This document shows, in pieces, positions 11,538 through 30,977 of a stretch of DNA of 45,426 bases (positions are counted from its first letter, which is position 1; the number at the start of each line of letters is the position of its first letter). Position numbers and translations under genes: made by a program. The DNA is from Gammaproteobacteria bacterium (GTDB taxonomy: Bacteria; Pseudomonadota; Gammaproteobacteria; Pseudomonadales; Pseudohongiellaceae): NCBI GenBank assembly GCA_016764875.1, contig JAESQX010000108.1:1-45426 (forward strand), written 5' to 3'. Below the pieces are notes generated by a model. The model made no database searches. It was not told where the DNA came from and saw nothing but the letters and a program-made list of their open reading frames with translations.

Positions 11538-11817
11538 TTCCCTGTGTCCACTGTCAATTGATGTGATCTGAGTATAAATCAGAAAGTCACTAAAGGTATG
11601 TAAAATATGGATCTATAGAAATAATTCCCTGTTTCGGAAACACGAAATATCATATTCCAAGATACGGGACCCCTTCTTCTATTTTTTTTCAGACTGAATA
11701 GCATCAAGACAATCCATTCCAATTCAAGCAGCTGCGGAATAAGCGGCTAATTACAAATATAAGGGGTCAGAGTAAATATACAGTTGTTTACTCTATTCCC
11801 TTTTATTCGCCGGCGTT
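11538..11817. other. Intergenic stretch with short inverted repeats, no gene
   Basis: No convincing gene is seen in these 280 bases. Two features stand out. GACCCCTT near 11666 and AAGGGGTC at 11761-11768 are inverted copies about 90 bases apart. GAGTAAA at 11770-11776 pairs with TTTACTC at 11787-11793 around a 10-base loop, 25 bases downstream of the dioxygenase stop. The AAGGGGTC(A) motif recurs near 16535 and resembles fragments of REP-type intergenic elements, but this is not proven. Confidence 0.35.
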
Positions 11818-12621
11818 TCAGGCTGCCCAATAATACATGCTTGTTTTCTTATTCAAAATTCGTAACTCAAAACTTTCTGTACAACGGGTGCCCGCCAGGC
11901 CATAACAAACATGCAGGGGCATCAAATGCTCCTCGGTTGGATGGCAAAAGCGGGCGAACGGGGCCTTTTCCCACTGGATGAGTTTTTGCACCCGCTCTTC
12001 TTCGTCAATATCCGGGATGGAACAGCAGTTCAATAACCACTGTTCGAAAGATTCATTCATTGTTTTTAATTCACTGGTATCCGGCGCGAAAAAAGAGCCC
12101 ATGTTGTGGAAGGACAGCCCGGAACCGATGAGCAGGGTATTTTCATGATCCAGGTCGCGAAGAGTCTGACCTATTTTAATGTGTTCAGCAGGATCAAGAT
12201 GGTTCACAAGAGACAACTGTACACAGGGGATATCAGCATTGGGATACATTATTTTTAGCGGCACAAACATGCCGTGATCGAATCCTCGCTGATCATCAAG
12301 TTTGCTTGCAATATTGGCATTTTCCAATAGGTTGTGGATCTTGTCGGCTAGTAACGGTTCGCCCGGGCAGGGATAGCTGATATTGTAAGATTCTTCGGGA
12401 AATCCGTAATAATCGTAGATGAGAGCAGGGTTTGCTCCGGAAGTAATAGTGGGTAGATTTTCTTCCCAATGCGCACTCACTATAATGATGGAAGATGGTT
12501 TTTTTATCTTGGCCGTAATTTTCTGCAAACAGGCGATCATCTGCGTGTGTCCTTCATCGCCAAGCAGCGGTAAAGGGCCTCCACCATGAGACAAATAGAG
12601 GGCTTGTGGCTTAATTTTCAT
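11818..12621 (-). CDS. LigB/DODA-type extradiol aromatic ring-opening dioxygenase
   Basis: Proteins of this family (bacterial YgiD, plant DOPA dioxygenase) cleave catecholic rings using a single metal. The reading frame could begin at a TTG at 12651, but the ATG at 12621 places the N-terminus exactly as in relatives (MKIKPQALYLSHGGGPLPLL), so I prefer it (267 residues). Metal-ligand candidates are His12 in LSHGGGP and His51 in VSAHWE, with the DHGMFVPLKIMYP segment in the middle and CHPTEEHLMPLHV near residues 221-233. LLIGSGLSFHNM is another family block. It is a single gene on the minus strand facing away from the DUF5916 gene. It may process aromatic acids released by the nearby esterase, but no other ring-degradation genes are adjacent. 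Confidence 0.88.
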   Translation of the reverse strand: MKIKPQALYLSHGGGPLPLLGDEGHTQMIACLQKITAKIKKPSSIIIVSAHWEENLPTITSGANPALIYDYYGFPEESYNISYPCPGEPLLADKIHNLLENANIASKLDDQRGFDHGMFVPLKIMYPNADIPCVQLSLVNHLDPAEHIKIGQTLRDLDHENTLLIGSGLSFHNMGSFFAPDTSELKTMNESFEQWLLNCCSIPDIDEEERVQKLIQWEKAPFARFCHPTEEHLMPLHVCYGLAGTRCTESFELRILNKKTSMYYWAA

Positions 12622-28340: not shown

Positions 28341-28713
28341 TACTCAACTCCTAAGGTACTGAAACTGATTAGAATCAATTTATTGATTAAATCACAAATT
28401 ATGTTTGTTGCACATTTGTTGAGGTACCTCATGCTAGGCTATTTGTTGTCGTAAAAAGATGCAATTTTCTTCTGGACAGCCCGAAGCGAATAAGGCTCTT
28501 CAGGGGCATGGATTCATAAGGGAGTAAAATTAGACACCCACAATTTCGAGCCAATAAAAACGAAGAGTTAGCTGAATATTCCTGTGAGTGTCCCATTTAT
28601 CACCATTTATCGTTTCTCCCGCCCGAGGGTTTGATTTCTGCTCACTGAGTTTTTGCATATGGACCAAAAGCAGGCGTTAGCTATCGATTTTGCTGAAACA
28701 ACTCATCTACCCA
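28341..28713. other. AT-rich non-coding stretch with an imperfect inverted repeat
   Basis: No gene is supported in these 373 bases. GACACCCACA at 28533-28542 faces TGTGAGTGTC at 28583-28592, a 10-bp inverted repeat with one mismatch around 40 bases, in a style seen in REP/BIME-type intergenic elements. It lies at the left border of the AT-richer QueC-like/GNAT island. Confidence 0.35.
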
Positions 28714-29349
28714 TTACATCGACTTCAATATTTTATGAACCACGACAGCGGCATAGTGAAGACTCGCATCATCATGATAGTAATTGGGAATAACATGATT
28801 TTCATCTGGAACAAAAAAATTTAACCGGCGATAAAGCTCCATAAAAGGGTCAACGAAACGTTCGCCCCTTTTCAAAAATACATACTCTTTGGCATCTGTA
28901 TGACCATATTTATTGCAATACCTAGCATAACCAGGGATGACTGCTCCAGCGGTTACAAATGAATAATTCAAATCTGTAGTCACGTGAACAATGTTTTTAA
29001 TCAATAATTCAAAGATGCCTTTGCCTCGATGCATTTTGTCTATGCCTGCTGAAACGATATACAGCGAGTTATAATGATTGGGTTCTTGCATAGGTGGTAA
29101 GTATCCTTCACCGGTCACTTCGTTCCATGTGGAAAAGGAACCAGGTTGGTCCATCTTATATACCATTGGGCACGTGGTAAGGGTTCCAACGATAGTGTTG
29201 TCTGCTTCAGCAACAATAAATCCGGTTGAGAATTTTTCAAGTCGCGACTCCATTTTTTCTTGTGATGCGCGCTCCTCTTCAGGCCAGCTTTGTTCGACAC
29301 GCATGATCCCACTAATGTCTTTTTTGTTAGCTTTGCGTACCGTTATCAT
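28714..29349 (-). CDS. GNAT-family acetyltransferase coupled to a QueC-like gene
   Basis: The 211-residue product is a GNAT fold. The acetyl-CoA pyrophosphate-binding motif A is HRGKGI (residues 107-112) after strand NSLYIVSAGIDKM; the N-terminal part VRKANKKDISGIMRVEQSWP is also typical. Its ATG (29347-29349) shares one base with the TGA of the upstream gene (TGATG), which implies translational coupling. The acceptor is unknown. Later conserved-looking stretches are VTAGAVIPGYARYCNKYG and YHDDASLHYAAVVV. The C-terminal ~70 residues (RRLNFFVPDENH and onward) go beyond the minimal GNAT domain. Because of the coupling, it likely modifies the product of the PP-loop enzyme, or shares its substrate. 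Base composition is AT-richer than the flanks. Confidence 0.85.
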   Translation of the reverse strand: MITVRKANKKDISGIMRVEQSWPEEERASQEKMESRLEKFSTGFIVAEADNTIVGTLTTCPMVYKMDQPGSFSTWNEVTGEGYLPPMQEPNHYNSLYIVSAGIDKMHRGKGIFELLIKNIVHVTTDLNYSFVTAGAVIPGYARYCNKYGHTDAKEYVFLKRGERFVDPFMELYRRLNFFVPDENHVIPNYYHDDASLHYAAVVVHKILKSM

Positions 29350-30476
29350 CAGTCGTTTCCAAATTTATCTAATTTTAAATAGGTTGATTTTAACATTCCG
29401 TTAAAAAGTTTTTTATCGGTATGAACCAATCGACGGCGCCATTGCTCGCGACGTCTTAGCTGCTGTAGTACGTCGTAGATATCTGACTTTTTGTAATTGT
29501 CAGCCAATTTGACTAAGTCATCTATTAAATGGTCTTCAAGTTCGTGATAACTTCGAAGTCTTCTTATGGGGTCTAGAGAGTCCAGTCTTGGGAAAGATGG
29601 GGTTTGGAGATCCAAAATTTCTAGAATCAGCATGGTTTGAAGGCATTTATGACATTTGCCACAGTTGTATCCCCGATCTTGCCAACATACACGAAGGTTA
29701 TTCAGGGCGTTTGGCCACGTTGTAGCAATCTTTTTTATTTTCTCAAAGCGATGGATGCCGCCATCATAGATGAGCTCTGTACTTTCCGTTGACCACAAGG
29801 GGTCGGTTAAAGGATGGCTACCGTCTGGAACAAGCGAGTCAAACGGTTGTGATGCAGGAATGTAATGAATAGGGAAACCGAGATGAAGGGCCATGTAAGC
29901 GAGGCCGGAGCCACAATAATGCGCCATCCACTTCAACCCTTTCGGATGGCACCAATCGCGAATATTTGTTTGAATAGGAATCAGTGTTTTGCCGAGTTCT
30001 GCGGCCAGTTCTTCGTTTTTTTCTAAAGCTTGTTGATATAGAGGTTGGTTGTCTACCTGAATGTCCACTCCTTGGGCAAAAACAAGGTGAGTGATTTCTT
30101 TTTGATGGGAGAGCAAAGTGTAGGCGCCATCAACACCTCCAGAAAAAAAAGAAGCAACTCCGCTTCGATTGGCATCAGTGGTCGTCACCTCAGCATGAAT
30201 CTCGACCGGTTTTAAATGAGGAAACCAGCATTGATAAATTTGCTGCAATTGCGTAATTCCACGTAGAAGTTTAGGCGATACAGGATAACTGGAAGGAAGC
30301 TCGATAGGTTCCCCTGTCTGCATGGCGGGGAGAAGTAGTGCGGCAATGTAAGGATCTCCTCGTTGCTTCGGAACATATTCCGAGGGCACGCGAATCCACA
30401 ACTCGAAATTTTCAATGAAACAGGAAATCTGAATTTGATTTCCATGAGATTTTATTTCAATTTTGCTAATTTTCAT
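29349..30476 (-). CDS. QueC-like PP-loop ATP pyrophosphatase of unknown substrate
   Basis: PP-loop enzymes adenylate a substrate with ATP. The 375-residue product has a 100-residue N-terminal part of its own, then the PP-loop FFSGGVDGAY (motif SGGVDG, residues 112-117, where the usual final Ser is Gly). A downstream zinc site is Cys264-x7-Cys272-x2-Cys275-x2-Cys278 (NCGKCHKC), as in QueC, which makes preQ0. Between them lie PIQTNIRDW, IPASQPFDSLVPDGSHPLTD and PLWSTESTE. The substrate is unknown. Motif blocks such as WMAHYCGSGLAYMALHLG suggest a family I have seen annotated only as hypothetical. The genes queD/queE/queF and the Qat or CBASS partners are not nearby. Translation is coupled to the GNAT gene. 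ATG 30476 has a weak AAGA site. Confidence 0.82.
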   Translation of the reverse strand: MKISKIEIKSHGNQIQISCFIENFELWIRVPSEYVPKQRGDPYIAALLLPAMQTGEPIELPSSYPVSPKLLRGITQLQQIYQCWFPHLKPVEIHAEVTTTDANRSGVASFFSGGVDGAYTLLSHQKEITHLVFAQGVDIQVDNQPLYQQALEKNEELAAELGKTLIPIQTNIRDWCHPKGLKWMAHYCGSGLAYMALHLGFPIHYIPASQPFDSLVPDGSHPLTDPLWSTESTELIYDGGIHRFEKIKKIATTWPNALNNLRVCWQDRGYNCGKCHKCLQTMLILEILDLQTPSFPRLDSLDPIRRLRSYHELEDHLIDDLVKLADNYKKSDIYDVLQQLRRREQWRRRLVHTDKKLFNGMLKSTYLKLDKFGND

Positions 30477-30977
30477 TTCTTAAGAGAGCCGAAAAATTAT
30501 GTCTGGTGAATCCTCCCGCACAGACTGCCCATGATGGTGGAACCATAATGCGATAATTGCAACTCAATGAGTTTTTTACTCTGTGGAACAGTCTAGCATG
30601 GTACTCATTGTCTTTATAAGTACGCTAAAAAGATGGGGCTTTTAAAGGTGTTGAATAAATCTCACACAAAGTTTGTATGCCTGGGAAAAAGAAGCACAAG
30701 CCAGGCTTGGCCAATCATAATAAAGGATAGGAGACCCATAAGAATCAACCAATAATGGTTCTTTCTATAGCCTATTTATGATAATTATTCTTACTACAAA
30801 TATGTGATGGCAGCTATTGGATTGTTAACTGATCCAGCAATAAAGATACAAGCTCCTATCCGATCAACTTGAAGCAACAAAGACGCCTCTGTGCATGGAT
30901 ACATATACTTTCGGTATCAAGTTGGCTACTCTTGCCATGCAGTTTGCTTCCTGTCTCTGCGAGAGGTTTAACTTAGA
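30477..30977. other. AT-rich non-coding stretch upstream of the QueC-like gene
   Basis: I see no gene in these 501 bases. They must hold the promoter of the QueC-like/GNAT pair (minus) and of the zinc-ribbon gene (plus), but no hexamer pair is convincing. GGATAGGAG at 30725-30733 and CTCCTATCC at 30853-30861 are perfect 9-bp inverted copies 119 bases apart, without target-site duplications. The composition is AT-rich compared with flanking genes. Confidence 0.35.

Follow-up and report, generated by a model that had tools for sequence, protein, structure and literature searches.

The locus and its composition

The window, i.e., the whole stretch of 45,426 nucleotides analyzed here (a gammaproteobacterial contig of the family Pseudohongiellaceae, JAESQX010000108.1), carries on its minus strand a pair of genes: P0001 (29349-30476), the first of the two and full length, encodes a QueC-like PP-loop (HUP-fold) protein of 375 aa, and P0002 (28714-29349) a GNAT-family N-acetyltransferase of 211 aa. 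An earlier note on this DNA described them as coupled genes meeting at TGATG, and indeed both open reading frames were found where it had placed them, together with the overlap (29347-29351, minus strand), in which the stop codon of P0001 and the start codon of P0002 have one base in common. Along P0001, whose features all lie on the minus strand, an N-terminal domain of approximately residues 1-100 (30177-30476; delimited on model secondary structure and family alignment) precedes the PP-loop SGGVDG (residues 112-117; 30126-30143), with a Gly instead of the last Ser, the family signature GSHPLTD (residues 219-225; 29802-29822), the R243-x2-K246 motif (29739-29750), in which R is invariant and K nearly so across 60 family members, and the zinc-site motif C264-x7-C272-x2-C275-x2-C278 (CWQDRGYNCGKCHKC; 29643-29687), whose cysteines are invariant in the same 60 sequences. 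The PP-loop and the zinc site had both been read correctly in the note, and the downstream protein, taken there for a GNAT enzyme with HRGKGI (residues 107-112), matches PF00583 with 23.1 bits (curated cut-off 20.7). Its acetyl-CoA loop HRGKGIF (residues 107-113; 29011-29031, minus strand) keeps R108 and the first G of the Q/RxxGxG/A pattern, while F replaces G/A at the last position, and it aligns with the YRGMRLG-type loops of relatives.

The third-position GC content (GC3) of P0001 and P0002 (0.39 and 0.38) is the lowest among the 27 CDS of the window, where the next lowest value is 0.477, in agreement with the claim that the two genes are AT-richer than their neighbours; likewise, the flanks without obvious gene, given as about 370 and 500 bases, measured 373 and 501. 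Neighbours of the pair are LysE, thiamine-binding, 121-aa and ABC genes. The thiamine-binding gene (Thiamine_BP family, PF01910; 28062-28340), which adjoins the pair, is rare in relatives, being present in one other genome of 57. No glycan gene was found beside the pair, nor was any transporter or further biosynthetic gene at the locus clearly linked to it. A tRNA gene search of the window gave no hit, promoter-like sites were not above the expected count, and terminator-like sites numbered six, compared with 2.6 in shuffles.

The AT-rich stretch around the pair (28341-30977, no strand) has a different content in one relative of the same family (locus L150 of genome G028). There, the RND-type, ABC, LysE and 121-aa genes and the far-side ABC pair follow the order of the window, and a pabB/pabC-type fusion fills the place of the window pair between the LysE and 121-aa genes; the other five relatives examined did not have the LysE side adjoining the ABC genes. 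This comparison supports insertion of the pair at a variable place, timing and route not being given by it. The lowest GC3 of the window and the other content at the syntenic place in L150 together point to a lateral origin, and the P0001/P0002 pair was therefore probably laterally acquired.

P0001 and the QueC-related enzymes

Relatives of P0001 were gathered from plasmids, genomes and viral contigs, and 60 sequences were aligned, P0001 included. With the own genome counted, members were found in 4 of 96 sampled genomes of relatives, in 10 of 369 of the class and in 10 of 398 of the phylum, so that the family ranges over approximately 2-3% of the sampled proteobacterial genomes; it also occurs in cyanobacteria, Bacillota, archaea and viral contigs. 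A scan of genome contigs for P0001 relatives gave one locus only. The window's own genome holds a paralogue with 33-39% identity on a small AT-rich contig (L012; G000:C244, 342-1490), surrounded by FemAB-like, glutamine cyclotransferase, ATP-grasp and PGA_cap capsule-synthesis genes. Homologues of P0001 reach about 41% identity, nothing closer having been found, and its clade in the family tree comprises eight members (SH-aLRT 98). Tandem PP-loop pairs were seen at several loci, four of which (L018, L070, L072, and L074) combine a member of the window's clade with one of a neighbouring clade; at L072 an FRG-domain gene (11540-12262) comes just after the tandem pair. The Roseburia member (L003, 7944-9527), with SLGVDS as its PP-loop, has a C-terminus resembling cell-wall repeats of the choline-binding type, odd for an ATP-using enzyme.

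Searches of Pfam, NCBIfam, PADLOC and PDB sequences returned no usable family for P0001, and none of the 60 members matches any library family well. Weak matches to PF06508 (QueC) at E ≤ 0.01 were obtained for six of them (best E 2e-4) and to DUF6395 (PF19932) for nine (best E 4e-5), while a profile-profile comparison of the family with QueC aligned the cysteine motif alone. The AlphaFold2 model of P0001 (14 sequences; pLDDT 87.0, pTM 0.85) predicts with confidence a PP-loop, Rossmann-like core bearing the zinc site and an extra N-terminal domain, with three strands and two helices ahead of the core. Its best fold matches among viral proteins are mostly of QueC type (probability 1.00, E 4e-4 to 8e-4), and those in the PDB are PP-loop enzymes matched weakly (best E 0.0097). 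The absence of a fitting library family, the weak PF06508 and DUF6395 matches and the QueC-type fold matches thus concur in indicating a QueC-related but separate group: the P0001 family is a divergent, uncurated sister family of QueC, outside PF06508. Literature searches retrieved no paper on it.

Across the 60 aligned members nine residues are invariant (G114, D116, R243, C264, N271, C272, C275, K277, and C278), which argues against the sequence features of P0001 being due to chance, and no cysteine is invariant beyond the four of the zinc-site motif. In P0001 these residues are intact, the only departure being the variable last position of the PP-loop. This position is occupied by S in 39 members, A in 11, G in nine and T in one, and changes state at least eight times on the family tree; since Gly or Ala stands there in 20 of 60 members and arose repeatedly, its replacement is a habit of the family rather than decay. 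In GSHPLTD, G219 is invariant and S220, P222 and D225 are conserved at 90% or more in the 13 members compared, and the motif is perhaps, judging from conservation, a substrate loop.

QueC is the 7-cyano-7-deazaguanine synthase (PF06508). It has in common with P0001 the PP-loop HUP fold, SGGxD and a C-terminal zinc motif of nearly the same spacing, C(x)8CxxCxxC in QueC and C(x)7CxxCxxC in P0001, the first interval being 7-9 in 48 of the 60 members. On the other hand, SGGxDS of QueC becomes SGGVDG in P0001, which is about 150 residues longer and has an N-terminal domain that QueC does not have, and no queD or queE lies beside it. Of the motifs typical of QueC (YxQxHxxE, VPxRN, and YPDC; PMC13329287) none is present in P0001, nor did P0001 match PF06508 at E ≤ 1. 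A separate canonical queC (E 4.5e-78) lies elsewhere in the same genome and, with the QueC motifs absent, P0001 is not queC.

Two defence proteins built on a related scaffold were compared as well. QatC resembles P0001 in its QueC-like core, N-terminal extension, zinc site and length, and carries a conserved HP pair (PMC13329287). Its C(x)19CGxC pattern is absent from P0001, which also does not keep the strict SGGxDS, and P0001 gave no NCBIfam or PADLOC QatC match at E ≤ 1; with no QatA ATPase, QatB or QatD TatD-DNase among the genes adjacent to the pair, an identity with QatC was rejected. Cap9 of type IV CBASS is a QueC-related scaffold for ATP-dependent conjugation (PMC13329287), of approximately 185 aa and with CE(x)6CxxCxxC and YxDC, both missing from the 375-aa P0001. 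Neither a CD-NTase nor Cap10 was found among the genes adjacent to the pair, and P0001 was accordingly separated from Cap9 on length, motifs and neighbours. The note had seen no Qat or CBASS partner, which holds for the adjacent genes, and the structure prediction it suggested gave a confident PP-loop model; fold, PP-loop and zinc-site spacing support its reading of P0001 as QueC-like, the motifs of QueC, QatC and Cap9 that were tested being absent.

The PP-loop enzyme WbpG acts in O-antigen synthesis, is annotated as N-sugar amidotransferase and belongs to cluster 5 of the QueC superfamily (PMC13329287). WbpG and the N-acetyl sugar amidotransferases share with P0001 the PP-loop, a link to surface glycans and a length of 300-400 aa, but the cysteine pattern and motif order of the WbpG cluster differ. 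DUF6395 matches P0001 at E 0.07, over the cysteine motif. A 2026 survey of the QueC superfamily analyzed ten clusters, with tRNA, defence, LarE, WbpG and GMPS among those named (PMC13329287). The P0001 family matches none of the clusters that this survey describes in detail.

Glycan genes, phages and acyltransferases around the family

A glycan gene lies within five genes of the family member, or is fused to it, at 25 of 40 cellular loci as compared to none of six control regions, counting glycosyltransferases, flippases, PS_pyruv_trans, ATP-grasp and FemAB/Acetyltransf_6 genes and leaving out the window locus. The count was corrected by hand, since the L042 fusion had led the iterative PS_pyruv search into PP-loop genes and position-0 matches had to be discounted, and further evidence was used for loci where ORF calling had missed a neighbour. 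The remaining 15 loci, some of them on short contigs, have no glycan gene within five genes. Glycosyltransferases, PS_pyruv_trans and polysaccharide flippases are on top of the Pfam tally of 128 neighbours. Among plasmid members, those of Gloeothece (two), Azospirillum and Priestia adjoin a gene annotated as polysaccharide pyruvyl transferase, and that of Gemmobacter has one two genes away. Fusions of the PP-loop and PS_pyruv_trans domains were also detected, one clear (L042, 9163-11424; E 1e-12) and one weak (L138, 5308-7119; E 7e-4). The P0001 family is thus linked to surface-glycan synthesis. The protein at L007 (11344-13020) resembles these fusions by eye and in the tree, with no Pfam match, and L142 (5908-8454) encodes a single 848-aa protein in which the PP-loop domain is followed by an Asp_Arg_Hydrox (aspartyl/asparaginyl beta-hydroxylase) domain.

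Family members were also found in 13 distinct IMG/VR viruses. According to PHROGs, tail or tail-fibre genes are close to the member in L131, L132, L133, L143, and L038, and weakly so in L037; in these six and in L130 the member is a single cargo gene near tail-fibre or lysis genes. Accessory (moron) genes run against the tail genes, and the tail-fibre neighbourhood is their usual place; on several of the viral contigs the PP-loop gene is on the strand opposite to the tail genes. In L135 it adjoins a PS_pyruv_trans gene (E 5e-19), preceded by a gene weakly resembling sulfotransferases. GenBank phage records showed no match with P0001 or with four viral-contig members, and phage carriage is therefore documented by IMG/VR contigs, which are possibly prophages or fragments. 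We infer that phages carry the PP-loop gene to alter the surface of their host.

The nearest kin of P0002 show 24-30% identity to it over most of its length. They form the GNAT half of approximately 520-aa GNAT/CN_hydrolase proteins, or are GNAT proteins encoded beside a separate CN_hydrolase (nitrilase superfamily), whereas a PP-loop gene precedes P0002, which stands alone. Stand-alone GNAT genes akin to P0002 and paired with separate CN_hydrolase genes were observed at L112 and L109. No CN_hydrolase is present among the window genes, and one partial, distant homologue was found elsewhere in the genome. The other PP-loop loci fetched up to the time of that search contained no P0002-like GNAT, so that, to date, only the window's genome shows this exact pair, and a conserved system of a PP-loop gene with a P0002-type GNAT was rejected. 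The two-gene system put forward in the earlier note is consequently not supported as a conserved one, since homologues of P0001 with up to about 41% identity occur without such a neighbour, one of the outcomes that the note had named as refuting it.

When co-occurrence was looked at more broadly, GNAT-superfamily acyltransferases of another type (Acetyltransf_6/FemAB) were seen adjoining PP-loop genes at four loci (L012, L019, L070, and L073), with the matches of L012 and L019 falling below the Pfam cut-off. The window's clade of eight is represented at three of these four loci, and at L070 acyltransferase and PP-loop gene share four bases. P0002 differs in type from these neighbours. Clustering of the acyltransferase-neighbour label on the tree was not significant (62 of 500 shuffles as low), hence the recurrence of a weaker form of PP-loop/acyltransferase pairing is suggestive only. 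Of the two-enzyme pathway that the note had proposed, the coupling and the QueC-like enzyme stand, and its conservation as a system does not.

Proposed function and alternative explanations

ATP binding and substrate adenylation are expected of PP-loop chemistry. P0001 would bind ATP and adenylate a carboxylate, be it a sugar acid, an amino acid or another small acid. Transfer of the acyl group, with ammonia or an amine as acceptor, would then yield an amide on a glycan or on its precursor. The role proposed for the co-translated P0002 is acetylation, or acylation of another kind, of an amine in this product or in its precursor. Amide formation is proposed by analogy with QueC and Cap9, and it is solely the translational coupling that suggests P0002 as a partner in this pathway. 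The glycan context of the family makes a glycan, or the precursor of one, the probable substrate of P0001. Decoration of a surface sugar or small molecule is the probable role of the pair. In a more specific form, which we favour tentatively and at somewhat less than even chance, P0001 may be a tailoring enzyme that uses ATP to form amides on a surface glycan or small molecule and that, with its acyltransferase partner, constitutes a laterally acquired module. Against a role in glycan tailoring are the lack of glycan genes beside the window pair and within five genes at 15 of 40 loci, the Gly in the PP-loop, the weak PDB matches and the different type of P0002.

The glycan-free window locus would also suit a stand-alone small-molecule pathway unrelated to the cell surface, in which a small acid is converted by P0001 into an amide or nitrile that P0002 acetylates. 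The kin of P0002 do pair with CN_hydrolase enzymes acting on amides or nitriles, and NRPS genes occur near some family members; nevertheless most members reside in glycan loci and the window locus offers no clearly linked transporter or further biosynthetic gene, making this explanation rather unlikely.

A module of anti-phage defence or phage conflict similar to QatC or Cap9, with P0001 conjugating a nucleobase or another acid to a protein, is less probable still. The location of viral-contig members next to tail-fibre genes, the FRG-domain gene near the L072 members, the related scaffold and the NCBIfam QatC match of two of the 60 members (E 0.004) are consistent with it, but neither P0001 nor P0002 matched any defence family, the QatC and Cap9 motifs are absent, no QatA/B/D or CD-NTase neighbours were seen and the glycan context predominates.

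The presence of ThiI, TtuA and MnmA among the top PDB fold matches, and the N-sugar amidotransferase annotation of WbpG in O-antigen synthesis (PMC13329287), raise the question whether P0001 might transfer sulfur or an amidine to a sugar or nucleoside, rather than form a plain amide. However, the PDB matches are all weak, with E about 0.01 for the best. The only four cysteines invariant in the family follow the spacing of the QueC zinc site, and the WbpG cluster has a different cysteine pattern, so that we give this possibility a low probability. That the pair is decaying or inactive, as the off-consensus SGGVDG (without the last Ser) and the odd acetyl-CoA loop HRGKGIF could suggest, is the least credible explanation, as 20 of 60 members have Gly or Ala at this place while keeping the residues that are otherwise invariant, and both frames are intact and translationally coupled.

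A bolder version of the glycan-tailoring role can be advanced as a speculation with a slim chance of being correct: a glycan branch of QueC-type chemistry, in which an acid activated by adenylation, perhaps even a 7-deazaguanine acid, would be ligated to the amine of a surface sugar, in the manner of the Cap9 ligation to a protein. Temperate phages would spread the family and thereby alter the cell surface, and in the window's clade a GNAT-type acyltransferase would serve as partner. Overall, the P0001/P0002 pair is a weak lead, and the interesting part is the apparently undescribed QueC-related family with its glycan and phage context. As the family is repeatedly linked or fused to PS_pyruv_trans-type enzymes, a concrete and testable prediction follows, namely that the family would perform a new, phage-carried, ATP-dependent tailoring step of bacterial surface glycans.
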